Below, piece after piece: positions 48,540-61,640 of a stretch of DNA of 64,000 nucleotides. Source of the stretch: Parachryseolinea silvisoli (GTDB taxonomy: Bacteria; Bacteroidota; Bacteroidia; Cytophagales; Cyclobacteriaceae); contig NZ_JAIOAO010000009.1 in the NCBI RefSeq assembly GCF_021190955.1, positions 62,001 through 126,000 on the forward strand, given 5' to 3'. Within the stretch, counting starts at the first letter, position 1, and every line of letters starts with the position of its first letter. Under the pieces are notes generated by a model that was not told the DNA's origin, did no database searches, and saw only the letters and a list, made by a program, of their open reading frames with translations. The position numbers were made by a program, and so were the translations under genes.

Positions 48540-48986
48540 CTAGGGCACCAATACCAGCGGGATGGAAAGACGGCCTACCAGGTCGTCGAACATTTCTTTG
48601 TTTACGACGTGCATGCTTTTATCCATGACAAGAAACGAGATGTGATTGTGGCGCAGCTGGTCCGTGATGCGGTCGGCCATAAAGCCAATCTCCATCTGAA
48701 AGTCGTACGACAACAACGGGTCTGCCAGGTATTCTTTTTCGAGCAGCTTAAAGTGCTGCAGCGAGTCCTCTTCGATTTTCCTTTTCATCTCCAGGGCATG
48801 GCCGTGCGTGGGTTTGATGAGCCGGTAGGTGTAGAGAATGGTAAGGTGCTCGTCAAACTGACGGGCAAGACTGACGGCCCACCGAAGGGCGTGCAGCGAC
48901 GACTCCGAAAAGTCAATTGCGCACAGAATCCGGTTGCTGGTAAGGGGGATAGCGTCTGTAGGCGTTTTCACTCGAGGCTTATTCAC
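48540..48986 (-). CDS. Universal stress protein (UspA family)
   Basis: 148 residues from a GTG at 48986. The UspA fold is shown by NRILCAIDFSESSLHALRWAVSLARQFDEHLTILYTY at the N-terminus and the C-terminal MFDDLVGRLSIPLVLVP. The glycine-rich nucleotide loop (GxxGxxxxxxxxS) of ATP-binding members is not clear, so ATP binding is uncertain. A TAAGTTCG box at 48997-48990 ends 3 bases before the start, with a CRP-type site 51.5 bp further up. It is divergent from the kinase/regulator pair and may be controlled by it. Confidence 0.9.
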   Translation of the reverse strand: MNKPRVKTPTDAIPLTSNRILCAIDFSESSLHALRWAVSLARQFDEHLTILYTYRLIKPTHGHALEMKRKIEEDSLQHFKLLEKEYLADPLLSYDFQMEIGFMADRITDQLRHNHISFLVMDKSMHVVNKEMFDDLVGRLSIPLVLVP

Positions 48987-49041
48987 ATACGAACTTAGGT
49001 GTCTTTTAAAAGGTTAGAGCCGATTTAAGTCAATACTGAAG

Positions 49042-49055
49042 CTGATTTTTGTCAT
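49042..49055. promoter_or_regulatory. Degenerate CRP/FNR-type site between usp and the kinase gene
   Basis: CTGATTTTTGTCAT, 12 of 14 bases the same as the CTGAT-TTTT-ATCAG site upstream of ccoNO. Its centre (49048.5) is 51.5 bp upstream of a TAnnTTTG-like box (TAAGTTCG, 48997-48990, minus strand) for the universal stress protein gene, the same spacing as in both cco promoters. Confidence 0.5.
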
Positions 49056-49086
49056 ATTCGTGTCAGCCAGTAATTGCAATACTTGT

Positions 49087-50364
49087 ATGATGGAAAACGC
49101 ACTTCCCATATCCTTTGAATCGAATGATGCTTTCCGGGAGATTTTCCAAAGTATGTCCGAGGGTATCCTTATGGTGGATGAGACGGGTAAGATCATCACA
49201 GCCAACGTTGTGGCCGAACACCTCTTTGGCTATGAGAAGAACGAGATGAACGGCATGCAGCTCGAGCAGTTGTTGCCAGAGCGCTATCGGGGGCGGCATA
49301 TGTCATTCCGCCGCGAGTTTAATGAACACCCCGAGCCGCGCCGCATGGGCATAGGCCGCGACCTCACGGCGCTGCGAAAAGACAGCCGTGAGTTTCCCGT
49401 GGAAATCAGCTTGAGTTATACCCACCTGAAGGGCAAGCTGTACGTCATGGCCTTCATCAGCGACATCACCCTGCGCAAAAAATCCGAAGATGCCCTGCGC
49501 CGCAGCGAGGAGCAACTGATTGTCTATGCTGTTGAGCTTGAGAAAAAAGTCGAGAGCCGCACGCAGGCGCTGAACGGTATGGTGGAGGCATTGGAAAAAG
49601 AAGTGCAAGACCGCAAGCGTGCAGAAGAAGACGCGCACCATGCGTTGGGCAAAGAGCGGGAGCTGAACGAGCTCAAGTCAAAGTTTGTTTCGATAGCCTC
49701 GCACGAGTTTCGCACGCCGCTAAGCGCTATACTGAGCTCCGCGTCGCTCGTACAACAGTACAGTGAAAAGCAGGACCAGGAAAAAGTGCACAAGCACGTG
49801 CAACGCATTAAGACTTCCGTTAAGCACCTGACGTCTATTCTCGATGACCTGCTGTCGCTCGGTCGCCTGGAAGAAGGTAAGATCGAAATGTCGCGTGAGC
49901 GCATCGACCTCTCGCCGTTCGTGCAGGAGGTAAAAGAAGAGATCAGCTCGGTCTTGAAAGAACAACAGCAGATCCTGTTGCTCTGCCCGCCCGCCGCGGA
50001 GCCTATTTATTCCGATGCACGTATTCTGCGTCACATCCTCTTCAATTTGATCTCCAATGCCAGCAAATATTCCGATGTAGGCAAACGCATTTTTATCGAA
50101 TGCCAGCGCCATCCTGACCATGTCTCTTTTTCCGTGCGCGACGAAGGCATCGGTATACCCAAAGACGAGCAGAAACATTTGTTCGACCGGTTCTTCCGCG
50201 CGAGCAACGCCGGCCAGGTACAGGGCACAGGCCTGGGGCTCAACATCGTGAAACGCTATGCCGACCTGATCGGTGGCAGGATAAGCTTTACCAGTGAAGC
50301 CGGTACCGGCAGTATATTTACCCTTGTAATTCCAGATACGTATGAAGAAAATTCTCTTAATTGA
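49087..50364 (+). CDS. PAS-domain sensor histidine kinase (soluble)
   Basis: 425 residues from ATG 49087 (MMENALPISFESND); a GTG at 49060 gives nine more residues. No membrane helix is seen. A PAS domain covers about 15-130 (FREIFQSMSEGILMVDETGKIITANVVAEHLFGY), then a coiled coil, then HisKA with His206 in SIASHEFRTPLSAI and an ATPase domain with NLISNASKYS, VRDEGIGIP and GTGLGLNIVKRY. A cytoplasmic PAS kinase beside a terminal oxidase cluster suggests sensing of oxygen, redox state or a bound cofactor, but no heme- or flavin-binding residue can be assigned. It overlaps the regulator gene by 23 bases. Confidence 0.9.
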   Translation: MMENALPISFESNDAFREIFQSMSEGILMVDETGKIITANVVAEHLFGYEKNEMNGMQLEQLLPERYRGRHMSFRREFNEHPEPRRMGIGRDLTALRKDSREFPVEISLSYTHLKGKLYVMAFISDITLRKKSEDALRRSEEQLIVYAVELEKKVESRTQALNGMVEALEKEVQDRKRAEEDAHHALGKERELNELKSKFVSIASHEFRTPLSAILSSASLVQQYSEKQDQEKVHKHVQRIKTSVKHLTSILDDLLSLGRLEEGKIEMSRERIDLSPFVQEVKEEISSVLKEQQQILLLCPPAAEPIYSDARILRHILFNLISNASKYSDVGKRIFIECQRHPDHVSFSVRDEGIGIPKDEQKHLFDRFFRASNAGQVQGTGLGLNIVKRYADLIGGRISFTSEAGTGSIFTLVIPDTYEENSLN

Positions 50365-51403
50365 AGACAACGCCGACGTGCGTGAAAACACCGACGAGAT
50401 TTTATCGTTGGCAGGCTACAATGTCGTGACTGCACCGAATGGCAAGAACGGCGTAGAGCTGGCCATGCAGGAGAAACCCGACCTCATCATCTGCGACATC
50501 ATGATGCCCGAGCTGGACGGCTATGGTGTGCTGCACATTCTCAGCAAGAAGGATGAGACAGCCGGCATTCCCTTTATATTCCTGACGGCAAAGACCGAAA
50601 AGACCGACATACGTAAAGGCATGAACCTGGGGGCGGATGATTACCTGACCAAGCCCTTCGACGATACGGAACTGCTCAATGCTATTGAAGCCCGCCTGCG
50701 CAAAAGCGATCTGCAACGCAAGCTCTATGACACCACCGAGGAGGGTCTCGATAATTTTATTCGCGATGCCCGTCAGGTGCTGCACTTGGAGGATCTGTGT
50801 AAAGACAAGAAAGTAAAGCCGTTTAAAAAGAAAGCAGAGATTTTTGCGGAAGGCGATACGCCGCTGTATGTATTCTTTGTGCGGTCGGGTAGTGTGAAAG
50901 TCTTCAAGTCGCATCCCGACGGAAAGGAGTTAATCACCAATCTCTACAATGCCAACGACTTTTTTGGCTTTGAGGCGGTGCTATCGGGTAATGTATATCA
51001 CGAATCCGCGATTGCGATGACGGATTGCGAGTTGATTGTAATACCCCGCCATGACTTCCTCACGTTATTTCAGGCACACCCGGATGTATCCTCCAGCTTT
51101 ATTTCGATGCTCTGCAAAAAAGTAGCGGAGCAAGAAAATCAGTTATTACACCTGGCCTACAACTCCGTGCGGCAACGTACGGCCGAAGCCCTGCTCAAGG
51201 TCGACCAACTCCGCGATGCCAGACAGAACATTCAGATCTCGCGTGATGACCTGGCCAAGATCGTCGGCACGGCATCGGAATCTGTTATTCGGGTGTTGTC
51301 GGATTTTAAAGACGAGGGACTGATCGAAATAGAAGGCGGCAAGATCCGCATTGTGCAGGCTGCGAAGTTAGAGAAGGTAGTTCGTTGGAACGTGGCCCGC
51401 TAG
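50342..51403 (+). CDS. Response regulator fused to a CRP/FNR-type DNA-binding protein
   Basis: 353 residues. Residues 1-120 are a receiver domain with phospho-acceptor Asp52 (IICDIMMPELDG) and the conserved Lys in LTKPFD. A cyclic-nucleotide-binding-type domain follows at about 150-270 (FKKKAEIFAEGDTPLYVFFVRSGSVKVF), then a CRP-type helix-turn-helix (ISRDDLAKIVGTASESVIRVLSDFKDEGLIEIEGG). No N-terminal Cys cluster of the FNR kind is seen, so input comes through phosphorylation. Its start overlaps the kinase gene, so the two are translationally coupled. It is the best candidate to bind the CTGAT-N4-ATCAG sites at the cco promoters. Confidence 0.92.
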   Translation: MKKILLIEDNADVRENTDEILSLAGYNVVTAPNGKNGVELAMQEKPDLIICDIMMPELDGYGVLHILSKKDETAGIPFIFLTAKTEKTDIRKGMNLGADDYLTKPFDDTELLNAIEARLRKSDLQRKLYDTTEEGLDNFIRDARQVLHLEDLCKDKKVKPFKKKAEIFAEGDTPLYVFFVRSGSVKVFKSHPDGKELITNLYNANDFFGFEAVLSGNVYHESAIAMTDCELIVIPRHDFLTLFQAHPDVSSSFISMLCKKVAEQENQLLHLAYNSVRQRTAEALLKVDQLRDARQNIQISRDDLAKIVGTASESVIRVLSDFKDEGLIEIEGGKIRIVQAAKLEKVVRWNVAR

Positions 51404-52080
51404 CGACACAACATGATATCCGTTTCCGCATTCGTGGCCGCAGGCGCAGGATGTGTCAGCCATACGCGGGCAATGAGCAGAACGGCGGAGACCACGAGTA
51501 AACTTGTAGTTAAAACCCGGGTAGAGATATGAAAGGAACGGGCGACCCATAGGAATACCGAGGGAAGCCCGATCATCGCGGGCGCCGTGCCCAGGCCAAA
51601 CAGCAGCATAAAGTTAAAACCATCGAGCGGTCCCCGCAGCGTGATGCAATACGACCACGCTACCGCAGTGAGGCCACAAGGGAGCAGGCCGTTTAACATA
51701 CCCAGCCACGCCGTTGTCAGAAGCCCTTTCTGCTGCAGCAATACACCTAAATGTATTTTGAGGAATGACGCCAGCCGCATCCAGACGCCGGAGAGTATAG
51801 GTATTTTCCAGGCATAGGCACCGGTGACAGCCATGAGTAACAATACGAGGCCTGTTAGGAGGGAAGCAATGGTTTGAAAATTTCCAAGGGGCAACCATGC
51901 GCCGATACTGCTGATCGCCGCTCCGATTATCGCGTACGTGAGAATCCTGCCGCCGTTGTATAGCAAGCGGGCGCGCCACACGCGGGCGTTCCGTACGGTC
52001 GCGGCCATGGCGAGCGGGCTACACATGCCTGCGCAGTGGATGCTTCCCGCCAGGCCGATGATCAGCGCCGTGAGCCACAT
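51400..52080 (-). CDS. SafE/UreH-like membrane protein of the cbb3 cluster
   Basis: 226 residues with six membrane segments. The opening LIIGLAGSIHCAGMCSPLAMA, with the HCAGMC motif, is that of the TauE/SafE-related proteins regularly found after ccoGH, which are thought to help copper supply or oxidase maturation; the mechanism is not settled. Other family segments are GMLNGLLPCGLTAVAWSYCI and LFGLGTAPAMIGLPS. Its stop shares the bases CTAG with the stop of the convergent regulator gene. It closes the ccoNO-started transcript. Confidence 0.88.
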   Translation of the reverse strand: MWLTALIIGLAGSIHCAGMCSPLAMAATVRNARVWRARLLYNGGRILTYAIIGAAISSIGAWLPLGNFQTIASLLTGLVLLLMAVTGAYAWKIPILSGVWMRLASFLKIHLGVLLQQKGLLTTAWLGMLNGLLPCGLTAVAWSYCITLRGPLDGFNFMLLFGLGTAPAMIGLPSVFLWVARSFHISTRVLTTSLLVVSAVLLIARVWLTHPAPAATNAETDIMLCR

Positions 52081-52090
52081 AAGCGTATTG

Positions 52091-52519
52091 TTAGAGGTGA
52101 ATGATTTCTTCGTGGTAGAATTCGCGGCCTTGCATGCGCCACGTCATGCGAGCGCGATACATGCCTTGCGGCAGGTTGCTGCCGAATAGTTGCGTGGTCT
52201 CCGGCGTGGCTTTTAGTACAAAAGCTCTATCGGCGGCAGCATTCGCCGGACAGAATAACTTCAGCTCGCCGGATTCGATGTTGGGCAGTTGGTCAAACGA
52301 CAGTGTCAGCCCGTGTTGTGCCGAGGTGGAAATAACAGGCTTGTTCGCCAGTTGTGCCGTGTTGGCTATGCGGTCGATTTGGTCCTGGTATTTTAGCTCT
52401 TCCTGGTAATAGTTTTTGCTCACCAGGCTTACGTCTTGCCGTATGCAGACCGTTACCAGTACGGCAATGAATGCCGCAAACAGAATAAACGCCAGGATAA
52501 TACTTTTTCCCCAGTTCAT
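52091..52519 (-). CDS. ccoH: FixH/CcoH-family oxidase assembly protein
   Basis: 142 residues: an N-terminal membrane helix at about 5-25 followed by a periplasmic beta domain. The motif VSLVSKNYYQEELKYQDQIDR right after the helix is diagnostic for FixH. The protein is needed for assembly of cbb3 oxidase in other bacteria. It lies 11 bases after ccoG and 10 bases before the SafE-like gene. Confidence 0.92.
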   Translation of the reverse strand: MNWGKSIILAFILFAAFIAVLVTVCIRQDVSLVSKNYYQEELKYQDQIDRIANTAQLANKPVISTSAQHGLTLSFDQLPNIESGELKLFCPANAAADRAFVLKATPETTQLFGSNLPQGMYRARMTWRMQGREFYHEEIIHL

Positions 52520-52530
52520 GATTGTAGGTT

Positions 52531-53994
52531 TTAGTGTGACTGTTCGTCTTTCAGACGGCTGTTGACATCGGACGAAGACCGGACCGGACCAATGAATTTG
52601 ACTTTTGCACGGTCCAGCAGCTTGCCGGTCTCGCGATGGTATATTTCCAGGTGTACTATCGTGCGGGCGGTTTTTATATTCTCTTCCGGTATGCGTATAA
52701 AGAATACGGTTTTGAGCATGCCCTCGGCGGGCAGCAAGATATCTTCACCGTCTACTTTTTGAAGTTCGGCCGTGGCCGGGGATACTACCCGTACCGTTAT
52801 GGGCACAGCATCGAACGACTTATTGATGAACTCTACATTATATAGATTTGAGATATAGCCGTCACCCGGTTTTTGATACAACGTGCCCGATACCTTCAAT
52901 ACAGTCGTTTCAACGTCAGAGCGTGTGGCGAGTGTGAAGCCCAGCAATGCAACAATCGCCGCCAGCACTGCTGTGTAGGCCATCAAACGCGGCGTCAGGA
53001 TTTTGGAGCTACCTTTTTCAATCGCGGCGGCCGAAGCATAGCGGATCAGTCCAGTGGGTTTGTTGACCTTTAACATTACATCATCGCACGCATCGATGCA
53101 GGCCGTACAGTTTACACACTCCAGTTGTGTGCCGTTGCGAATATCAATACCGGTAGGGCAGACGTGAACACACAGCTTACAATCCACGCAGTCGCCTTTC
53201 GGCGCTTCCACCGTTTGTTTCTTGCGCAGCTGTCTGCGCGGCTCACCCCGCAGCCAGTCGTACGCCACGACAATCGACTCTTTGGTCAGAAGCACGCTTT
53301 GCAAGCGGCCGTAAGGACACACCGCTATACATGCCTGCTCGCGAAAGCGTGCATAAACCCCATAGAAGATTGCCGTGAAGGCCACGAGCCCAAGAAAGCC
53401 CGCCAGGTTGTTCATCGGCGACTGGCTCGCGATGGCCAGCGTTTGGTTCGTGCCGATCATGTACGCCAGGGCGGTATGCGCAATGATGACAGAAATGATA
53501 AGAAAGATCAGGTGCTTGGACGTCTTCTTCCATACCTTCTGGAAGCTGATCGGCGCCGCGTTTAACCGGCGTTGCGCCGGGGCGTCGCCCTCAATCCAGT
53601 ATTCTATCTTGCGGAAGACCATTTCCATAAACAACGTCTGCGGACACATCCATCCACACCATACACGCCCGAAGGCCAATGTAAAGACGATGATGAAGAT
53701 AAAGAATGCAATGAGAATGAGGGCCAGTAGCACAAAGTCTTGCGGCCAGAACGCCTGGCCGAGGATGACGAATTTCCGTTCGAATATATTAAATAGCAAG
53801 AACGGTTGACCACCAATGCGGAGAAACGGACCGGCGAAGAATATTGTCAGGAGGAGTATGGTGACGGCAATACGCCAACGGTGAAAGGTGCCGGCGGGTT
53901 TCTTGGGATAAATCCAGATACGTTTGCCTTGCCCGTCGACTGTGGCGATGGAATTCCGGAACTCTTCGTTGAATTGATATACTTCGTCGGTCAT
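52531..53994 (-). CDS. ccoG: CcoG/FixG/RdxA polyferredoxin, oxidase assembly
   Basis: 487 residues, four or five membrane helices and two 4Fe-4S sites with Cys at 269, 272, 275, 279 and 293, 296, 299, 303. The membrane part has WCGWMCPQTLFMEMVFRKIEYW and QACIAVCPYGRLQS, conserved in CcoG. A C-terminal Ig-like domain follows the last helix (about 340-355). CcoG reduces copper for insertion into cbb3 oxidase. It lies between ccoP and ccoH in the usual order. Confidence 0.96.
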   Translation of the reverse strand: MTDEVYQFNEEFRNSIATVDGQGKRIWIYPKKPAGTFHRWRIAVTILLLTIFFAGPFLRIGGQPFLLFNIFERKFVILGQAFWPQDFVLLALILIAFFIFIIVFTLAFGRVWCGWMCPQTLFMEMVFRKIEYWIEGDAPAQRRLNAAPISFQKVWKKTSKHLIFLIISVIIAHTALAYMIGTNQTLAIASQSPMNNLAGFLGLVAFTAIFYGVYARFREQACIAVCPYGRLQSVLLTKESIVVAYDWLRGEPRRQLRKKQTVEAPKGDCVDCKLCVHVCPTGIDIRNGTQLECVNCTACIDACDDVMLKVNKPTGLIRYASAAAIEKGSSKILTPRLMAYTAVLAAIVALLGFTLATRSDVETTVLKVSGTLYQKPGDGYISNLYNVEFINKSFDAVPITVRVVSPATAELQKVDGEDILLPAEGMLKTVFFIRIPEENIKTARTIVHLEIYHRETGKLLDRAKVKFIGPVRSSSDVNSRLKDEQSH

Positions 53995-54005
53995 AACATG
54001 ATGCT

Positions 54006-54953
54006 TTAGAGCGATGCTTGCGGCGCCGCCGCGGTGCTGTCAGTCGTCGCTTGTGTTTCCTGGAAGATCTCACCTTGTGGCGCCTTTCCGTTGGCAGGAT
54101 TGCTGCCCTGCAGGCTCATAACATAAAAGGTCACATCGCGTACATCCTGCGGGCTAAGCGTTTTACCCCAGGCCGGCATGCCTTTCTCGACAACACCCGC
54201 CTTGATGGTGTTGAATATGTTTTGGACGCCACCACCGTGCAGCCAGTAGGCGTCGGTCAGGTTCGGACCGATCGTGTTACCACCGCCGTCGGCCCGGTGA
54301 CACGATCCGCAGTTGTTATTGGCAAAAACGCCTTTACCTTTTTCCAGTGCCGCCGCGTCTGCGGTATATTTCAGTGTGTTGACGTCTATCTCTTCTACCG
54401 GCTGAGCGGCTTTGCGCGCACGCATTTGTTCGTCAGCAATCGCCACTTCCCGGTCATACTCTTCCTGCTGCAGTGGCAGGTTGCCATAGAGATGGTAGGC
54501 AACAAGGTAGGCCAGTGCCCAGACCACGGTACCGGCGAAGAGCCACTTCCACCATGGCGGCAAGTGGTTGTCCAACTCACGAATGCCGTCGAAGTCGTGT
54601 CCCAGGTCGATGTCCTGCTCTCGCGCGAGCGGTACCGAGGCATTTGCCTTCTGCACAACCCGTTGCCAGAAGCTGCTCGGGGGTACATACGTGATTCCCT
54701 GTTTTTCGGCGCGTTCTTTCGCGGTTAAGTTGATAAGTACATTCAACACGCGTAGCAGCGAGAAACATACTACCACGACCAGGATTGCCACAATGGCAGC
54801 AAAGAATGATAACGCGTAGAGGGGCATGAGGGGGTGATTGACGGGATCGTCCCAGAAGCCCGGTGCTGTAGCTGCGGGTGATGTATCTGCGGCCAGACCA
54901 GTGGTGGCCGCCAGCAGGCCTCCCGTGAGTAACGTAATAGATGAATATTTCAT
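54006..54953 (-). CDS. ccoP: cbb3 oxidase subunit III, single-heme CcoP
   Basis: 315 residues from ATG 54953, which gives a clean signal peptide (MKYSSITLLTGGLLAATTGLAADT). Two further membrane helices lie at about 45-75 and 138-156, with the CcoP N-terminal signature DLGHDFDGIRELDNHLPPWWKWLF before the second. One c-type heme site is present, CGSCH at 215-219, with a likely axial Met in KGMPAWGKTL near 259. Proteobacterial CcoP has two heme c sites; the one-heme form is usual in Bacteroidota. It carries electrons to the CcoNO core. Confidence 0.95.
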   Translation of the reverse strand: MKYSSITLLTGGLLAATTGLAADTSPAATAPGFWDDPVNHPLMPLYALSFFAAIVAILVVVVCFSLLRVLNVLINLTAKERAEKQGITYVPPSSFWQRVVQKANASVPLAREQDIDLGHDFDGIRELDNHLPPWWKWLFAGTVVWALAYLVAYHLYGNLPLQQEEYDREVAIADEQMRARKAAQPVEEIDVNTLKYTADAAALEKGKGVFANNNCGSCHRADGGGNTIGPNLTDAYWLHGGGVQNIFNTIKAGVVEKGMPAWGKTLSPQDVRDVTFYVMSLQGSNPANGKAPQGEIFQETQATTDSTAAAPQASL

Positions 54954-54957
54954 ACCG

Positions 54958-55152
54958 CTATACATTAGAAGTGTTGGAGATCGTGTCGTCGTCGGTGGCT
55001 TCCACAGGCAGGTTCTTCATCTTGTCGATGAACTTCCTGTCGGCGGTGAACACATACCACAGCAGGCACAGAAAGAAGAGGAAGAAGATAACGAATGACA
55101 CTACCGGCCAGATCGCTATGTTGTCGATGTTTTGCAATACGTTCTTATACAT
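54958..55152 (-). CDS. ccoQ: CcoQ-like small subunit
   Basis: 64 residues with one membrane helix at about 14-36 (WPVVSFVIFFLFFLCLLWYVF) followed by TADRKFIDKMKNLP, the position and build of CcoQ/FixQ. It lies 12 bases after ccoNO and ends 4 bases before ccoP. CcoQ stabilises the oxidase complex. Sequence similarity across this family is low, so the name rests mainly on size, topology and position. Confidence 0.8.
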   Translation of the reverse strand: MYKNVLQNIDNIAIWPVVSFVIFFLFFLCLLWYVFTADRKFIDKMKNLPVEATDDDTISNTSNV

Positions 55153-55164
55153 ATAGGGAGTCGG

Positions 55165-57309
55165 TTATTGGTTGGCGCCTAGGGCTGCTTCGTCGGCAGG
55201 AGCTGCTTTGATGTCCGTGCCCAGTCGTTGCAGGTAGGCAATGAGCGCGATGATCTCGGCGTCCGATGCTACTTCAATGCCGTCGGCCTTCAGCGATGCC
55301 GTGATAGACAGGGCTTGTTTTTCGAGGTCTTCGTTGGCGATCTCTTCAAACCCTTCTTCATACGGCACACCTACTTTGCGCAGCGCGGTGATCTTGCCGC
55401 GGGTTTCGGTTTTGTCGATGGTTTGCTCCGACAGCCACAGGTATGCCGGCATGATCGAACCTGTAGACACCGCGTCGGGCGCCAGCATGTGGTTGTAGTG
55501 CCAGCTGTTGGAGTACTTGCTGCCGATACGGTGCAGGTCGGGACCGGTGCGTTTCGAGCCCCACAGAAACGGGTGGTCGTACACGAATTCTCCGGCCTTG
55601 GAATACTCGCCATAGCGCTCGGTCTCCGAGCGGAAGGGGCGAACCATTTGCGTGTGACAGTTCACGCAGCCTTCACGAATGTAGATGTCGCGGCCGTGTA
55701 GCTCAAGCGGCGTATAAGGTTTGACGCTACTGATCGTAGGGACATTGGACTTCACCAGGAACGTAGGGATCATCTCCAATGCGCCCCCGATCAGAATAGC
55801 GATCAAGGTCAGTACTGTAAAGAGTACGGGCTTGTGTTCCAGCAAGCGATGGTGCCAGCCACCACTGGTGGACACATAGCCTTTTGTAAGCGGCATGGCT
55901 TCAGCGTCTTCGTTTGCCAGGAAGCTACCGGCATAAGCCGTCTTGATCAGGTTATAGGTCATCAGGATGGCACCGCTAAGGTAGAGGGCGCCACCGACCG
56001 CACGCAGGGCGTGCAGGGGCAGTATTTGCACCGTCGTTTCCAGGAAGTTTTTATACATCAGCATGCCTTCTGGATTAAATTCCTTCCACATCAGGCTTTG
56101 CACGACGCCCGATACATACATGGGCAGCGCATAGAAGATGATGCCGAGCGTACCCAACCAGAAGTGCACATTGGCCATCCGCGTCGAGTACAGTTTGGTG
56201 CGCCACATGCGGGGAACCATCCAGTACAGCATGGCAAAGGTCATGAAGCCGTTCCAGCCCAGCCCGCCCACGTGCACGTGTGCCACAATCCAGTCGGTAA
56301 AGTGGGCAATCGCGTTAACGTTCTTCAGCGACAGCAGGGGGCCTTCCAGCGTAGCCATGCCGTATGCTGTCACGGCTACTACCATGAATTTCAAAACCGG
56401 ATCTTCGCGTACCTTGTCCCACGCACCCCGCAGCGTCAGCAGACCGTTTAGCATACCACCCCAGGACGGAGCAATAAGCATCAGCGAAAACACAGTGCCG
56501 AGTGATTGTGCCCAGTCGGGCAGTGAAGTATATAGCAAGTGGTGCGGGCCCGCCCAGATGTAGATGAAAATGAGTGACCAGAAATGGATGATAGAGAGTC
56601 GGTAGGAGTACACGGGGCGATTTGCCGCCTTTGGCAGAAAGTAATACATCATGCCCAGGAAAGGTGTCGTGAGGAAGAACGCCACGGCATTGTGGCCGTA
56701 CCACCATTGCACGAGGGCATCCTGCACGCCGGCATAGACCGGGTAACTTTTAAAGAGGGTTACGGGTATCTCAAACGAATTGACCACGTGCAGTACCGCC
56801 ACCGTAATAAATGTCGCGATGTAGAACCAAATGGCTACATACATGTGCCGCTCGCGGCGTTTGATGATCGTGCCCAGCATGTTCCAACCGAATACTACCC
56901 AGATCACCGTAATGGCGATGTCGATGGGCCATTCCAGCTCGGCGTATTCCTTGGAAGAAGTGAACCCGAGCGGCAGTGTGACAGCTGCGGCGACAATGAT
57001 AAGCTGCCAGCCCCAGAAGTGGAGCCAGCTGAGGCGGTCGCTATACATGCGGGTCTTGAGCAGACGCTGCATGGAATAATAGACACCGGCAAACATCGCG
57101 TTGCCCACAAAGGCAAAGATGATGGCATTGGTGTGCAGAGGCCGTATGCGTCCAAAAGACGTATACTGCAGATCGAAGTTAAAGACCGGGTAGACCAGCT
57201 GAATAGCCGCCGTCAGGCCCACCAACATCCCCACCAGCCCAAAGACCACGGTGGCAATGATAAAGGCTTTGACGATCCGGTTGTCGTAACTGAATTTGTC
57301 AAGTTCCAT
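55165..57309 (-). CDS. ccoNO: cbb3 oxidase subunits I and II fused (CcoNO)
   Basis: 714 residues. The N-terminal part (about 1-480) is the 12-helix heme-copper subunit, with QDALVQWWYGHNAVAFFLTTPFLG and the His-rich FIYIWAGPHHLLYTSLPDW that bind CuB and hemes. The C-terminal part is CcoO: a membrane helix (about 490-512), LHGRDIYIREGCVNCHTQM with heme c site CVNCH at 548-552, and LWGSKRTGPDLHRIG. CcoN and CcoO fusion is common in Bacteroidota. The enzyme reduces oxygen with high affinity. The gene starts the transcript ccoNO-Q-P-G-H-safE, and has an upstream CRP-type site. Confidence 0.97.
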   Translation of the reverse strand: MELDKFSYDNRIVKAFIIATVVFGLVGMLVGLTAAIQLVYPVFNFDLQYTSFGRIRPLHTNAIIFAFVGNAMFAGVYYSMQRLLKTRMYSDRLSWLHFWGWQLIIVAAAVTLPLGFTSSKEYAELEWPIDIAITVIWVVFGWNMLGTIIKRRERHMYVAIWFYIATFITVAVLHVVNSFEIPVTLFKSYPVYAGVQDALVQWWYGHNAVAFFLTTPFLGMMYYFLPKAANRPVYSYRLSIIHFWSLIFIYIWAGPHHLLYTSLPDWAQSLGTVFSLMLIAPSWGGMLNGLLTLRGAWDKVREDPVLKFMVVAVTAYGMATLEGPLLSLKNVNAIAHFTDWIVAHVHVGGLGWNGFMTFAMLYWMVPRMWRTKLYSTRMANVHFWLGTLGIIFYALPMYVSGVVQSLMWKEFNPEGMLMYKNFLETTVQILPLHALRAVGGALYLSGAILMTYNLIKTAYAGSFLANEDAEAMPLTKGYVSTSGGWHHRLLEHKPVLFTVLTLIAILIGGALEMIPTFLVKSNVPTISSVKPYTPLELHGRDIYIREGCVNCHTQMVRPFRSETERYGEYSKAGEFVYDHPFLWGSKRTGPDLHRIGSKYSNSWHYNHMLAPDAVSTGSIMPAYLWLSEQTIDKTETRGKITALRKVGVPYEEGFEEIANEDLEKQALSITASLKADGIEVASDAEIIALIAYLQRLGTDIKAAPADEAALGANQ

Positions 57310-57345
57310 GCGCGTTAGCAGTTTGTTCTCTAATTTTTTGTGACC

Positions 57346-57353
57346 TAAAATTA
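57346..57353 (-). promoter_or_regulatory. -7 element (TAATTTTA) of the ccoNO promoter
   Basis: Seven of eight bases agree with TAnnTTTG. It lies 37 bases upstream of the ATG. No TTG stands at -33, which fits a promoter that needs an activator. Confidence 0.45.
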
Positions 57354-57397
57354 GAGTACCCCCTCACCACCCCGTATGACCCACGTTAGTGGCCTCC

Positions 57398-57411
57398 CTG
57401 ATTTTTATCAG
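57398..57411. promoter_or_regulatory. CRP/FNR-type site CTGATTTTTATCAG upstream of ccoNO
   Basis: Perfect inverted repeat CTGAT-N4-ATCAG, close to the FNR/CRP-type consensus TTGAT-N4-ATCAA. Its centre (57404.5) is 51.5 bp upstream of the -7 element, the class-I-like distance also found at ccoI. Confidence 0.7.
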
Positions 57412-57487
57412 TCCCTCTTTATATCGATTCTAAATGCGTGGATTTGGTGTCAGGTTTTGCTGGTTAGACGGCCGTTTCATGCACAAG

Positions 57488-57577
57488 GCAGCAACCATGC
57501 TGCGAATGTTTGCTGGCGCAAGAGTAAGCGCGAAGCGCGGCTCTTGTGACTACAACTGTTGCCAGTCTTAGACTGGC
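57488..57577. repeat. Cluster of three hairpins between hemN and ccoNO
   Basis: Within 90 bases lie GCAGC/GCTGC (57488-57503), a nested CAAGAG/CTCTTG with inner GCGC-GAA-GCGC (57519-57546), and GCCAGTC-TTA-GACTGGC (57561-57577). Neither strand shows a T-run, so simple termination is doubtful. It looks like an interspersed palindromic element or the folded 3' end of the hemN message. No gene is seen in 57412-57605. Confidence 0.5.
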
Positions 57578-57605
57578 GAAGCCTGCATTTTAAACTATTC
57601 CCAAC

Positions 57606-58976
57606 TCAAATAGCCCGACTAAAAACCGGTGTCATTCCGCTCTGCTGCCTTCTCATTCTCTTATCAAACACATAACAAACATTTCGTATAAACGCCCTTC
57701 CATTTTCAGTAACCCACAACTCATCTTCCCTGAACTCCACAATTCCATCCATCTCCAATTCCCGCAACCCCAGCGCTATCCCTTCATCCAAAGCCTGCGC
57801 TAATAATGCGCCACCAAGCTTCCCCTGACACGCAATTTCCAAAATACACCGCCGCAACAACCGATCTTCATCTGTTTGCAGGTGCCCCTTCAACAACGGC
57901 AGATGGTGCCCCGCCACGGCAGCTTCATACTCCTCCACGCTTTTACTATTCTGCGCGTAAGCATACCCCGCATCACTAATAGACGAAGCACCCAACCCCA
58001 CCAACAGTTGCGTATGGCTTGTGGTATATCCCATAAAATTCCGATGCAACGACCCTTCCTGCGCTGCCCTATACAGCGCGTCGGACTCCAGCGAAAAGTG
58101 ATCCATCCCGATGTCATGATACCCCGCCGCATGTAGCAAACGCCGGCCCGTCTCATAAAGCAGGCGCTTAGTAGCATCGTTCGGCAGGTTGGCATCCTCA
58201 TATCCCCGTTGTCCCGGCTTCAACCACGGCACGTGCGCGTAGCTATAAAAAGCAATGCGGTCCGGCCGCAGCTGAATCACCTGGCGGAACGTTTCAGCAA
58301 TCGTCTCCACCGTCTGGTAAGGCAAACCATAGATCAAATCAAAACCAATCGAATCATACCCAATCCCCCGGCTGTTCTGCACGGCCGTCTCGACATTTAC
58401 AAAAGGCTGTATACGATGTATCGCCGTTTGTACCGTAAGATCGAGATCTTGCACCCCATAGCTCACGCGGCGAAAGCCCAGGTTGTACAGTGTCTGCAAG
58501 TGCTCTGCCGTCGTGTTATTTGGGTGCCCTTCAAAGCTAAACTCCCGCTGCGGATGCAGTGTACACGAATCAAGGATCGTATGCAAAAGCGTATGCAGGT
58601 TCTGCGGGCTAAAGAACGTTGGCGTACCGCCGCCCAAATGCAGTTCCCGTAATTGCGGTTTTTTACCAAAGATATAACGATACAGCTCCCACTCTGTCAA
58701 TACACTGCGTAGATAACGTTCTTCCACTGCGTGGTTCTTTGTAATGCGCGTATTGCAAGCGCAATAGGTACACAGACTCTCGCAGAATGGTAGGTGTATA
58801 TACAGGCTGATGCCCTGGCTGTCGTTGGTTTCATCAAACACTTTTTCAACGGCCTGTATCCATGGTTTAGCAGAGAAATCATTCACGTTCCAGCACGGCA
58901 CGGTGGGGTAGCTGGTATACCGGGGCACCGGCACGTCGTATTTTTTGAGCAGCGAAGTTTCGGGAGCAGTGATCAT
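57606..58976 (-). CDS. hemN: Oxygen-independent coproporphyrinogen III oxidase (radical SAM)
   Basis: 456 residues, full HemN length. The radical-SAM cluster motif is YIHLPFCESLCTYCAC with Cys65, Cys69 and Cys72, plus Cys74. Other HemN signatures are LHLGGGTPTFFSPQNLH, FEGHPNNTTAEHL, SYGVQDLD and the C-terminal GKLGGALLAQAL. It turns coproporphyrinogen III into protoporphyrinogen IX without oxygen, a late step in heme synthesis. Its ATG overlaps the ccoS stop (ATGA, 58973-58976), so heme synthesis is translated together with oxidase maturation genes and should respond to the same CRP-type site. Confidence 0.96.
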   Translation of the reverse strand: MITAPETSLLKKYDVPVPRYTSYPTVPCWNVNDFSAKPWIQAVEKVFDETNDSQGISLYIHLPFCESLCTYCACNTRITKNHAVEERYLRSVLTEWELYRYIFGKKPQLRELHLGGGTPTFFSPQNLHTLLHTILDSCTLHPQREFSFEGHPNNTTAEHLQTLYNLGFRRVSYGVQDLDLTVQTAIHRIQPFVNVETAVQNSRGIGYDSIGFDLIYGLPYQTVETIAETFRQVIQLRPDRIAFYSYAHVPWLKPGQRGYEDANLPNDATKRLLYETGRRLLHAAGYHDIGMDHFSLESDALYRAAQEGSLHRNFMGYTTSHTQLLVGLGASSISDAGYAYAQNSKSVEEYEAAVAGHHLPLLKGHLQTDEDRLLRRCILEIACQGKLGGALLAQALDEGIALGLRELEMDGIVEFREDELWVTENGRAFIRNVCYVFDKRMRRQQSGMTPVFSRAI

Positions 58977-59137
58977 GACACAGGTTTATTGTCGTCTTTT
59001 TTCTGATCAAAGAGCATGCGGACCGAAGGCGTATACATGTCGTCGTATTGGCCGCTTTTGATATTCCAGAAGAACACCACCAGGAATGCTACCGCGATAG
59101 TGAGACTGATCGAAATGAGCAATATAATGATCATCAT
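58973..59137 (-). CDS. ccoS: CcoS, cbb3 oxidase maturation protein
   Basis: 54 residues from ATG 59137 (or ATG 59134). One membrane helix at the N-terminus (IIILLISISLTIAVAFLVVF) is followed by FWNIKSGQYDDMYTPSVRML, a conserved CcoS ending in which GQYDD and the TPSxRML motif are diagnostic. CcoS is needed to put cofactors into cbb3 oxidase. It lies 10 bases after ccoI, and its TGA overlaps the hemN ATG. At 54 codons it is easily missed by length filters. Confidence 0.93.
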   Translation of the reverse strand: MMIIILLISISLTIAVAFLVVFFWNIKSGQYDDMYTPSVRMLFDQKKDDNKPVS

Positions 59138-59147
59138 GACGAGGAGA

Positions 59148-61550
59148 TTAAATTGATTTGTTTTTTAAGATGCGCCGCGCGGCAATATTCACACCAATGG
59201 ATGAAAAACCTACCACGCTCACGCTACTTAGCGGCATGAGGATCGCGGCGACGAGCGGCGTAAGATGCCCTGTCACCGCAAAACTCAACGCCACGGCGTT
59301 ATACATAAACGATATGATAAAACCGGCCTTCAGGATTCGGGTAGAAACTTTTGATAACTGCATGAACCGGTCGAGTGACTGTATCTGGCTGCCGTGCAAA
59401 ATGCCATCACACGCAGGCGTAAAGATGCCGGTATCGTCCGTCACCGCGAGGCCCACGTCGGCTTGCTTCAGCGCACCGGAATCGTTCAGGCCGTCGCCCA
59501 CCATCAATACCTTTTTACCTTGCTGCTGCAGATTTCGTATATAGTCTAACTTGTCGTGTGGGGTTTGGTTGAAGTGCAGCTGCACGTGTTCGCCAAAAAG
59601 CGTTTGCATTTTATCCCGGTCGCCATCGGTATCACCCGACAGCAACGCCACGCAGCGACGGTCCAGGCGTCCAAGCATACCTTTCAGGTCTTTGCGCACC
59701 GAAGCTTGTACTGTCATGAGTCCGCGAAGCTCGCCGTTGATGGCTACGAACACCTGGCCCGACGGCGTCGGAATGAGACTGCGATTGTCCGTGGTAAATG
59801 ATGCCGATCCGATGCGTATTACGTTGCCGGCAATAACGCCTTCGATACCTTTACCGGGTATCTCTTTAAACCCGGTCACGATATCGTTCGTATGCTGGCG
59901 AATAGTCGCCGAAATGGATTTGCTAAGGGGGTGTGTCGAGTAGCTGGTCAGTAGTTTAATCCAGGCATACTCTTCACCCGTCAGGCTTCCCGTGTGCGAT
60001 ACATCCGGCTTATCGCCCAGTGTAATCGTGCCGGTCTTGTCAAAGACAACAGCATCGACTGCCGCCAGGCGTTCGATCACGTCGGCGTTCTTGAGGTATA
60101 ACGCATGGCGCCCCATCACACGCAACATGCTGCCATACGTAAACGGCGCCGCCAGTGCCAATGCACACGGGCACGCCACCATTAACACCGAGGTAATGAC
60201 CAGCCACATATTGGCCGGTGCGGTATAATACCAATAGAAGGCCGTCAGTACGGCGATACCCAGCACAATCCACGTAAAACGCCGGGCTGCACGATCAATA
60301 ATTTTCTGATAGTTGCGCTCGTCCGTTTTACGGAAAGCGTCGTTGTTCCAAAGGCTGGTGAGATGGCTTTGTGACGTGGGCTTTTCCACCAGAAATGTCG
60401 CCGGCGGCCCGATGACGCGTCCTCCTGCATACACCACGTCGTGCTGCCGCGCTTGCACGGGGCGCGCTTCGCCGGTCACAAAGCTATAGTCGATGTGTGC
60501 GGTCTCGTCCAGCAACAGACTGTCGGCAGGAATAATCTCCAGGTTGCGAATACGAATCGTGTCGCCTGGCGCCAGCTCGTAGATCACCACCGGTTTCCAC
60601 TGTCCGGCTACCTGCTTTTGCACAGCCAGGGGGAAGTATGAAGTAAAGTCACGATCAAAGGCCAGGCTCTCATACGTCTTGCTCTGGAACCACCGGCCGA
60701 TCAGGAGAAAGAAAACCAGTCCGGTAAAAGAGTCGAGGTAGCCCGGACCGGTGGCGGTAACAATGTCGTAGGTGCTGCGCAGAAACAATGCCAGCAGGCC
60801 CGCCGCGATTGGTACGTCAATGTTGACCTGTCGCTGTTGAAAGCTTTTCAATGATGCCTGAAAATATCCGGCTGCACTGTAGAAGAATACTGGTATGGAA
60901 AGTGCCAGGTTGAGCCAGGAGAAGACGCGCATCAGGCTGGCGTCGCTGGCATCGAGACCCAGGTATTCCGGAAAGCTGAAGAGCATAACATTACCAAAGC
61001 AAAAGCCGGCGAGTGCTAGTTTTAATACGGCCTGCTTGTTGGTGCCTGGCTTTTCACGCGTGGTATCCTCCAGGTTAACAGACGGCGCGTAGCCGATGTT
61101 GGCAAGCCATTGGCCGATACGACTGAGCGCGACCTTTTGTGGGTTGAAGTCGACCGATACAGTCTTACGTGCAAAGTTTACTTCCGAGCGCAGAATGCCG
61201 GCATCTACCTTTTGCAGATTTTCCAGCAGCCAGATGCAAGACACACAGTGAATGGCGGGAATATAGAATTGAACGCTGGCAAAATCGGGAGAGTCGAACT
61301 TCAGTAACTTCTTCCGGACGCTTTTCTCGTCGAGGTAAGCATACACATCATCGCCGACAACGTCGTGTTGATTGCCCGGCGTTTTGTCGAGACTATAATA
61401 TTCGCACAGGTCGTGGGTATTGAGAATTTCAAAAACGGTCTGGCATCCATAACAGCAAAAAGTCTTTTCTTCCAGGTGTAGCACCTCCTTTTCGCAGGCC
61501 TGTCCGCAGTGATAGCAGGTCGTAACAATCTGTTTTTCCGTAGCAACCAT
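59148..61550 (-). CDS. ccoI: CcoI/FixI copper-translocating P1B-type ATPase
   Basis: 800 residues from ATG 61550; an upstream ATG at 61592 lies before the promoter box and is rejected. The N-terminus carries a Cys-rich metal-binding region (CYHC at 12-15, CCYGC at 32-36) and an HMA-like domain with HCVSC at 101-105. The ATPase core has the intramembrane CPC at 460-462, the phosphorylation motif DKTGT at 504-508, the actuator VTGEA and the hinge VGDGLNDSGALK. It delivers copper for the CuB site of cbb3 oxidase. ccoS and hemN follow in the same operon. Confidence 0.96.
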   Translation of the reverse strand: MVATEKQIVTTCYHCGQACEKEVLHLEEKTFCCYGCQTVFEILNTHDLCEYYSLDKTPGNQHDVVGDDVYAYLDEKSVRKKLLKFDSPDFASVQFYIPAIHCVSCIWLLENLQKVDAGILRSEVNFARKTVSVDFNPQKVALSRIGQWLANIGYAPSVNLEDTTREKPGTNKQAVLKLALAGFCFGNVMLFSFPEYLGLDASDASLMRVFSWLNLALSIPVFFYSAAGYFQASLKSFQQRQVNIDVPIAAGLLALFLRSTYDIVTATGPGYLDSFTGLVFFLLIGRWFQSKTYESLAFDRDFTSYFPLAVQKQVAGQWKPVVIYELAPGDTIRIRNLEIIPADSLLLDETAHIDYSFVTGEARPVQARQHDVVYAGGRVIGPPATFLVEKPTSQSHLTSLWNNDAFRKTDERNYQKIIDRAARRFTWIVLGIAVLTAFYWYYTAPANMWLVITSVLMVACPCALALAAPFTYGSMLRVMGRHALYLKNADVIERLAAVDAVVFDKTGTITLGDKPDVSHTGSLTGEEYAWIKLLTSYSTHPLSKSISATIRQHTNDIVTGFKEIPGKGIEGVIAGNVIRIGSASFTTDNRSLIPTPSGQVFVAINGELRGLMTVQASVRKDLKGMLGRLDRRCVALLSGDTDGDRDKMQTLFGEHVQLHFNQTPHDKLDYIRNLQQQGKKVLMVGDGLNDSGALKQADVGLAVTDDTGIFTPACDGILHGSQIQSLDRFMQLSKVSTRILKAGFIISFMYNAVALSFAVTGHLTPLVAAILMPLSSVSVVGFSSIGVNIAARRILKNKSI

Positions 61551-61574
61551 AACCGGTGTGCTTTTTTGCACTGT

Positions 61575-61582
61575 CAAAAGTA
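61575..61582 (-). promoter_or_regulatory. -7 element (TACTTTTG) of the ccoI promoter
   Basis: Exact match to TAnnTTTG on the minus strand, 24 bases upstream of the ATG at 61550. No -33 TTG is present, as at ccoNO. Confidence 0.6.
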
Positions 61583-61626
61583 CCGGGCCCATCCTGTAAG
61601 CCCGGTGATGATACTCAACTGTGCGC

Positions 61627-61640
61627 CTGATCTTTATCAG
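61627..61640. promoter_or_regulatory. CRP/FNR-type site CTGATCTTTATCAG upstream of ccoI
   Basis: CTGAT-N4-ATCAG, extended to CCTGAT-N4-ATCAGG at 61626-61641. Its centre (61633.5) is 51.5 bp upstream of the TACTTTTG box, exactly the spacing of the ccoNO site. Confidence 0.7.

Follow-up and report, generated by a model that had tools for sequence, protein, structure and literature searches.

Within a 64,000-nucleotide stretch of the Parachryseolinea silvisoli genome (the window; contig NZ_JAIOAO010000009.1, positions 62,001 to 126,000), three promoters carry similar palindromes upstream of their -7 boxes: those of the cbb3 oxidase gene ccoNO, of the ccoI-ccoS-hemN cluster, and of a gene for a universal stress protein, usp1. 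What do these promoters have in common, and which protein reads it? A sequence-only reading of the window had proposed a single palindromic site, bound by one CRP/FNR-type regulator. We find instead a tandem pair of palindromes at fixed distances from the -7 box. Our preferred explanation, to which we assign a probability of about 0.7, is that this tandem operator governs a regulon for microoxic respiration and persistence, and that its most likely activator is a receiver-CRP protein encoded at 50342-51403, under the control of a FixL-like kinase.

A tandem operator at three promoters

The two perfect palindromes described earlier are present, CTGAT-AAAG-ATCAG (CTGATCTTTATCAG, 61627-61640) upstream of ccoI and CTGAT-AAAA-ATCAG (CTGATTTTTATCAG, 57398-57411) upstream of ccoNO, as is the degenerate copy upstream of usp1, ATGAC-AAAA-ATCAG (CTGATTTTTGTCAT, 49042-49055), which has 2 mismatches. 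All sites and boxes of these promoters are on the minus strand. Compared with TAnnTTTG, the -7 box is perfect at ccoI-ccoS-hemN (TACTTTTG, 61575-61582) and has 1 mismatch both at ccoNO (TAATTTTA, 57346-57353) and at usp1 (TAAGTTCG, 48990-48997). The distance of 51.5 bp from palindrome centre to box had been given correctly, and the gap between palindrome and box is exactly 44 bp in all three cases. What the single-site description missed is a second palindrome in each promoter, at 61605-61618 for ccoI (TTGAGTATCATCAC), at 57376-57389 for ccoNO (CTAACGTGGGTCAT, with a left half TAA, not TGA) and at 49020-49033 for usp1 (TTGACTTAAATCGG, with a right half TCG). Among the 10 closest relatives listed, 8 have TACTTTTA as the ccoNO box, and the usp1 box is TATGTTTG, TACGTTTG, TAAGTTTG or TATTTTTG in five related loci.

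The spacing was examined without bias by searching for CTGATN4ATCAG with TAnnTTTG downstream, all gaps between 34 and 54 being allowed, in a set of 146 genomes (the P. silvisoli genome, 7.95 Mb, and 145 relatives). A gap of 44 accounted for 17 of the 51 matches, while every other gap had 3 or fewer (binomial probability ~1e-10). A second TGA-N6-TCA, matching at 5 or more of its 6 bases, lay exactly 22 bp downstream in 12 of the 17 matches with a gap of 44, in none of the 3 with gaps of 43 or 45, and in none of the 31 at the remaining gaps (Fisher test, 9e-8). These distances were combined into a tandem design, TGATN4ATCA-N10-TGAN6TCA-N23-TAnnTTTG; unless another threshold is given, a match could have as many as 3 mismatches. 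In the window this design matches exactly the three reported promoters, with 0 mismatches at ccoI; the 288 other spacing combinations produced 9 matches in total (mean 0.031, maximum 2). It matches 20 times in the P. silvisoli genome versus 0 for the reversed pattern, 1173 times versus 64 in the 146 genomes, and 92 times versus 0 in 80 loci around receiver-CRP genes, where altered spacings gave 0-21 matches.

The consensus of the 92 sites is [AC]TGA[TC]AAAAATCA[TG], 8 bp, TGA[TC]-N4-GTCAT, 22 bp, TAnnTTTG. The operator is composed of a distal [AC]TGA[TC]-N4-ATCA and a weaker TGA-N6-TCA exactly 22 bp downstream, placed before TAnnTTTG. No conserved -33 element was found in the consensus of these 92 sites from the 80 receiver-CRP loci, which bears out the earlier observation that good -33 boxes are absent and fits promoters of the activator type. 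The available text of a start-site study in Flavobacterium psychrophilum places TAnnTTTG at -12 to -5 (PMC9723704). The two palindromes are therefore centred near -63.5 and -41.5. The site that had been noticed, and that had been compared with activators near -61, is the distal one; the overlooked proximal site is at -41.5, the usual position of a class II activator.

The palindrome by itself is not specific. It has 13 perfect copies in the P. silvisoli genome, 8 of which overlap open reading frames (ORFs) of at least 80 amino acids, and scans for single palindromes were dropped as a test for this reason. One outcome named earlier as refuting, a motif common at random places in the genome, thus applies to the palindrome but not to the arrangement. 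When palindrome and box were required at a gap of 44, only two sites had 0 mismatches, at ccoI and at a second usp gene on another contig, outside the window (C8:245540-245605), and ccoNO was the sole addition at 1 mismatch. The independent usp promoter therefore supports usp1, the weakest of the reported sites. On single-site evidence alone the usp1 site is weak, because it is one of 84 matches at up to 3 mismatches, against 26 for the reversed control; that scan was too noisy for usp1 and the tandem design was used in its place. A looser half-pattern at gaps of 30-60 (14 matches versus 1 reversed in the P. silvisoli genome) was also set aside, its signal being blended with matches at many gaps.

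Genes behind the operator and its conservation

At 19 of the 20 tandem sites in the P. silvisoli genome an ORF starts on the same strand within -150 to +250 nucleotides of the box end, a raw count that carries no chance rate, and 4 of the 20 sites overlap a called ORF. The genes behind the sites encode CcoI, CcoNO, five Usp proteins, Hsp20, OsmC, an enzyme of the pyruvate phosphate dikinase (PPDK)/phosphoenolpyruvate (PEP) synthase type, a zinc alcohol dehydrogenase, YceI, an MlaE permease, a ketohexokinase-type kinase, a lysine-decarboxylase-family protein, an S30AE hibernation-type factor, a stand-alone CRP protein and two proteins without a Pfam match. We read this set as a regulon for microoxic respiration and for persistence or survival. 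The shared CRP/FNR-type regulon proposed earlier, joining the cbb3 oxidase, the copper ATPase, hemN and usp, is supported by the tandem-site counts. Nine of the 20 sites lie within 45 kb (C5:1504-1549 kb; loci L260-L262), around a second receiver-CRP gene. The genes of this stretch include those for two Usp proteins, Hsp20, OsmC, the PEP-synthase-type enzyme, YceI and MlaE, and it looks like a hypoxia or dormancy island.

At C7:491141-491236 (locus L264), a single tandem pair, of a TTGA-N6-TCAA variant, is common to the stand-alone CRP-type gene and a divergent ORF of 87 amino acids without a Pfam match. Cases in which divergent genes have a pair in common (27, at offset 31) were considered more generally and judged weak evidence, since any palindromic pair will of its own accord match in both directions.

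The design recurs upstream of the oxidase genes of relatives. Among the best 30 of the 119 genomes with a ccoN match (P. silvisoli included), 26 ccoN regions contained it when up to 4 mismatches were allowed, and the box ended 26-45 nucleotides before the start of the match; the reversed pattern and the pattern shifted into the gene each gave 0 of 30. The proximal left half, judged by eye, is TAA and not TGA in 18 of these 26 regions. Between usp1 and the kinase gene, a pair facing usp1 was recognised at the same threshold in 8 of the 12 loci closest to this one. In a phylum-wide sample of 296 genomes, searched at up to 2 mismatches, matches occurred in 41 of 73 genomes of the same class (P. 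silvisoli included) and in 13 of 223 outside it; the reversed pattern gave 2 in total. One genome outside the class, G409, has 13 tandem sites at this threshold, as compared with 0-2 in each of the other 222.

The genes served by the three promoters are all on the minus strand. The ccoI gene, for a copper-type P-type ATPase, spans 59148-61592; it is followed after 10 bp by an ORF of 54 amino acids (58973-59137), named ccoS-like from its position and the look of its sequence, which overlaps by 4 bp with hemN (57606-58976), the gene for oxygen-independent coproporphyrinogen oxidase (TIGR00538 above cut-off). It is as the third gene of this ccoI-ccoS-hemN cluster that hemN is predicted to enter the regulon. 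The ccoNO fusion gene, for cbb3 oxidase subunits I and II (55165-57309, PRK14485 above cut-off), is followed on the same strand by ccoP (54006-54965; FixP_N above cut-off, with a TIGR00782 match below its cut-off), ccoG (52531-53994; TIGR02745 above cut-off), a gene for a small protein at the FixH/CcoH position (52091-52519), named by position only and without an NCBIfam match, and a gene for a DsbD_2-family membrane protein of the cco cluster (51400-52080). The usp1 gene lies at 48540-48986. Its start is probably the GTG at 48971, because the -7 box would leave a start at 48986 without a leader, and that of ccoI is probably the ATG at 61550, because the -7 box falls inside the longer ORF. The longest ORFs of both genes begin upstream of the likely transcript start (61550-61592 for ccoI and 48971-48986 for usp1), and the annotated starts would probably be too long.

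The candidate regulator, its kinase and the alternatives

By family matches, the protein encoded at 50342-51403 on the plus strand joins a receiver domain to a module made up of a CRP-type sensor and a helix-turn-helix (HTH). It had been named before as the regulator; it is the best candidate, and it is not a plain CRP/FNR protein. In a scan against protein families its output part matched CRP families, and no LuxR/GerE match was found. Among 82 aligned receiver-CRP proteins (query included), receiver residues D9, D52 and K104 are invariant, T82 is present in 81, and neither the Glu nor the Arg of the recognition helix varies. At the position that aligns by eye with the cAMP-contacting Arg of the CRP sensor domain, which we take as the reference, there is Glu in 53 proteins and Asp in 24; in this set the Arg feature of cAMP-CRP is replaced by an acidic residue in 77 of 82. 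A structure prediction made without an alignment had a mean predicted local distance difference test (pLDDT) score of 42.9 and was not used.

The regulator gene overlaps the gene of a PAS histidine kinase (49060-50364, plus strand; first in-frame ATG codons at 49087 and 49090). The PAS sequence matches FixL structures (1dp6/1drm) at an expect value of 2e-15, although a different kinase, 10jx, is the best match among solved structures. His 80 and, 20 residues on, Arg 100 of a Gly-x-Gly-Arg motif align with FixL 1dp6/1drm, at positions which we take to be the proximal His and the Gly-x-Gly-Arg of the heme-PAS domain. We liken the kinase PAS to the FixL heme-PAS on this alignment, with heme binding as a putative property. 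Most of the Saprospiraceae kinase rows seen closely resemble FixL. The kinase alignment used the best-scoring kinase of each stretch, which is not necessarily the paired one, and a count of the conserved His (74 of 79 kinases) was set aside, as it includes N-termini that are receiver domains, where the alignment is meaningless.

A kinase homologue lies directly upstream of the receiver-CRP gene in 74 of the 80 loci, and the fetched flanks contain cco or hemN genes in 33 and usp genes in 23. Among named organisms, Dawidia soli, Ohtaekwangia koreensis and Chryseolinea species are the nearest. A Pontibacter kinase (L303) has a receiver domain in place of PAS according to Pfam. By eye, the kinases upstream of receiver-CRP at L301, L305, L309, L317, L323 and L332 also seem to have an N-terminal receiver instead of PAS. 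At these seven loci the kinase seems to have acquired a different input side, with the receiver-CRP protein kept. We do not claim that the operon of kinase and regulator is autoregulated in P. silvisoli, since the box on that side is poor (AATACTTG, 4 mismatches).

The operator with its exact spacings, its recurrence within the genome and among relatives, the genes behind it and the domains of the regulator pair are read directly from the DNA. From them we infer binding by the receiver-CRP protein, activation, oxygen as the signal and phosphorylation as the switch; oxygen is suggested because the kinase resembles FixL and because of the nature of the target genes. In the proposed mechanism, two CRP-type dimers would bind side by side, 22 bp or two helical turns apart. 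The proximal dimer would occupy the class II activator place and stand in for the missing -33 element, and the stronger distal site would anchor it. The FixL-like kinase would phosphorylate the receiver-CRP protein when oxygen falls, so that two proteins may do the work of FixL, FixJ and FixK. Under this control would stand the cbb3 oxidase and its copper loading, oxygen-independent heme synthesis, the universal stress proteins and functions of the dormancy type.

Several observations weigh against assigning the whole regulon to this pair. The second receiver-CRP protein is encoded inside another cluster of tandem sites, and the stand-alone CRP carries a tandem pair upstream of its own gene. 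Both FixL residues are present in only 39 of the 79 aligned kinases, and some loci, as described above, have a receiver domain in place of the kinase PAS. The design is missing from 4 of the 30 ccoN regions (G074, G048, G080 and G043) and was found in just 9 of 30 ccoI regions (the best 30 of 121 genomes with a match; both controls 0 of 30), though we read the upstream sequence of some ccoI regions without the pair as probably operon-internal. Nor is the pair a general feature near receiver-CRP genes, the 92 sites being spread over 80 loci, many of which have none. The density of sites is 1.87 per Mb in genomes with a full-length match to the fusion, 1.49 in those with only a partial match (a stand-alone CRP or just a receiver; Mann-Whitney p 0.04, uncorrected) and 0.70 in those with a weak match or none, with reversed values of 0.08-0.10 overall and 0.10 in the last class. 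G062 (14 sites) and G133 (6) are high despite a weak or absent receiver-CRP match; G062 has a weak FNR match. On these densities, the operator in these bacteria is a CRP/FNR-family code and not a signature of the fusion. A single regulator for all three promoters stays a proposal, given the second receiver-CRP and the stand-alone CRP, which could bind the same sites, and the relatives that keep the operator and in which no full-length fusion was found.

What else might read the operator? A census of the P. silvisoli genome gave five HTH_Crp proteins above cut-off and ten further, weak HTH matches below it. A CxxC cluster was not found in any of the five above cut-off, the receiver-CRP protein at 50342-51403 among them, and none of the genome's three matches to an FNR query covers the cluster part. 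All of the 30 FNR matches fetched from the 146 genomes (query included) have the CxxC cluster and further cysteines. By eye, at least 20 of the 146 genomes encode a stand-alone FNR-like protein no more than 5 kb from ccoI or ccoN. Some relatives have both the FNR and the receiver-CRP kinds (for example G018 and G036), and the ccoN regions of some FNR-bearing genomes carry the same operator (for example G063). These distributions fit a putative swap of sensors under a conserved operator.

The alternatives to our explanation differ in how much of it they would replace. We consider it rather unlikely, at something like one chance in four, that cco is served through the same operator by another regulator, the stand-alone CRP (C7:490425-491039) or the second receiver-CRP (C5:1520333-1521379), with the pair encoded in the window regulating only part of the set. 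Such a division of labour would account for G022, G060, G063 and G064, which keep the tandem ccoN promoter and in which no full-length receiver-CRP match was found (up to 14 candidates scored per genome; G060 and G064 are 86-89% complete), and for the tandem pair upstream of the C7 gene, whose product also has the recognition-helix Glu and Arg and so probably a similar site preference. However, neither protein is encoded near cco in P. silvisoli, the sites of the C7 protein's own gene are TTGA-N6-TCAA rather than CTGAT-N4-ATCAG, and it is the kinase and receiver-CRP pair that keeps cco, hemN and usp genes in its flanks, at the frequencies given above.

A dual role of the operator is still less probable, and we think it improbable that the proximal palindrome represses or fine-tunes while the distal one alone activates. 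The model for this is fnrN of Rhizobium leguminosarum, where, in the available part of one paper, activation comes from the distal anaerobox and repression from the proximal one (PMC7888657), and the weaker proximal half-site of most ccoN promoters (TAA for TGA) would agree with it. The repressing rhizobial site is listed there at -2, though (PMC7888657), whereas the proximal site here is at about -41.5, and the exact 22 bp spacing of the pair recurs in many different promoters. A coincidence of common motifs, for which the abundance of the lone palindrome and the degenerate usp1 copy could be cited, has next to no weight, having been refuted already by the spacing controls and the cross-genome counts.

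Relation to known oxygen regulons

By function the regulon is the Bacteroidota counterpart of the FixK/FnrN/ANR regulons, with a variant of its own in operator and regulator. The anaerobox of these proteobacterial regulators, TTGAT-N4-ATCAA, is a palindrome of the same type, but the outer base here is mostly C or A, not T. Both hemN and usp are targets of ANR-type regulators. The core targets are the same as well, namely fixNOQP (cbb3) and fixGHIS (assembly), according to the accessible portion of one paper (PMC7888657). In that portion the activating FixK/FnrN anaeroboxes of these operons are single and located at -32 to -34 by the paper's own counting (PMC7888657), whereas here two palindromes 22 bp apart precede the Bacteroidota -7 box.

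The FixL-FixJ-FixK cascade of nitrogen-fixing bacteria has its parallels here in a FixL-like PAS kinase, a receiver and a CRP-type DNA-binding module beside cco genes. Response regulators of the FixJ type carry a DNA-binding domain of the LuxR/GerE type. Here the receiver and the CRP module are one protein, and there would be no step from FixJ to fixK. The FNR proteins with a cysteine cluster at the N-terminus belong to the same family, and the same operator precedes ccoN in some of the genomes that encode them, but the HTH_Crp proteins above cut-off in P. silvisoli lack the cluster.

NmpRSTU of Myxococcus xanthus, as far as the available text describes it, is a two-component system with a proposed role in sensing low oxygen that reportedly acts on hemN and on cbb3 oxidase genes with an associated P-type ATPase, and at one studied promoter it has two regulator sites, of which the proximal is needed for transcription (PMC11841059). 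It differs in its regulator family, being NtrC-type and dependent on sigma-54, with a GCGCA-N5-TGCGC site (PMC11841059). Among the Bacteroidota, F. psychrophilum strongly induces its cbb3 oxidase, plus heme-synthesis enzymes, under oxygen limitation (PMC9723704, accessible part), and the CRP proteins of the phylum are MalR-like in the available text of another study (PMC8510549). Neither a receiver-CRP fusion with FixL-like kinases nor this tandem operator in Bacteroidota was recognised in the literature by titles and the starts of abstracts, in a search that left most subscription journals outside.

We regard it as an even bet that the Bacteroidia share an old tandem-operator code for microoxic life under which lineages have swapped the sensor, with a cysteine-cluster FNR next to cco in many relatives, and a FixL-like kinase with a receiver-CRP protein (FixJ and FixK merged) in Dawidia, Chryseolinea and Ohtaekwangia. 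The same operator would also drive a dormancy-type set of five Usp proteins, Hsp20, OsmC, the PEP-synthase-type enzyme and a ribosome hibernation factor. Little literature was found on the logic of oxygen-responsive promoters in Bacteroidota, and an operator that is exact and can be searched for lets regulons be predicted at once in many genomes. It also opens the activator position to testing in bacteria whose sigma factor recognises a different core promoter. Should the sensor swap prove true, it would be a clean example of one regulator taking the place of another while the cis code is conserved, with the receiver-CRP fusion as a compact oxygen switch.

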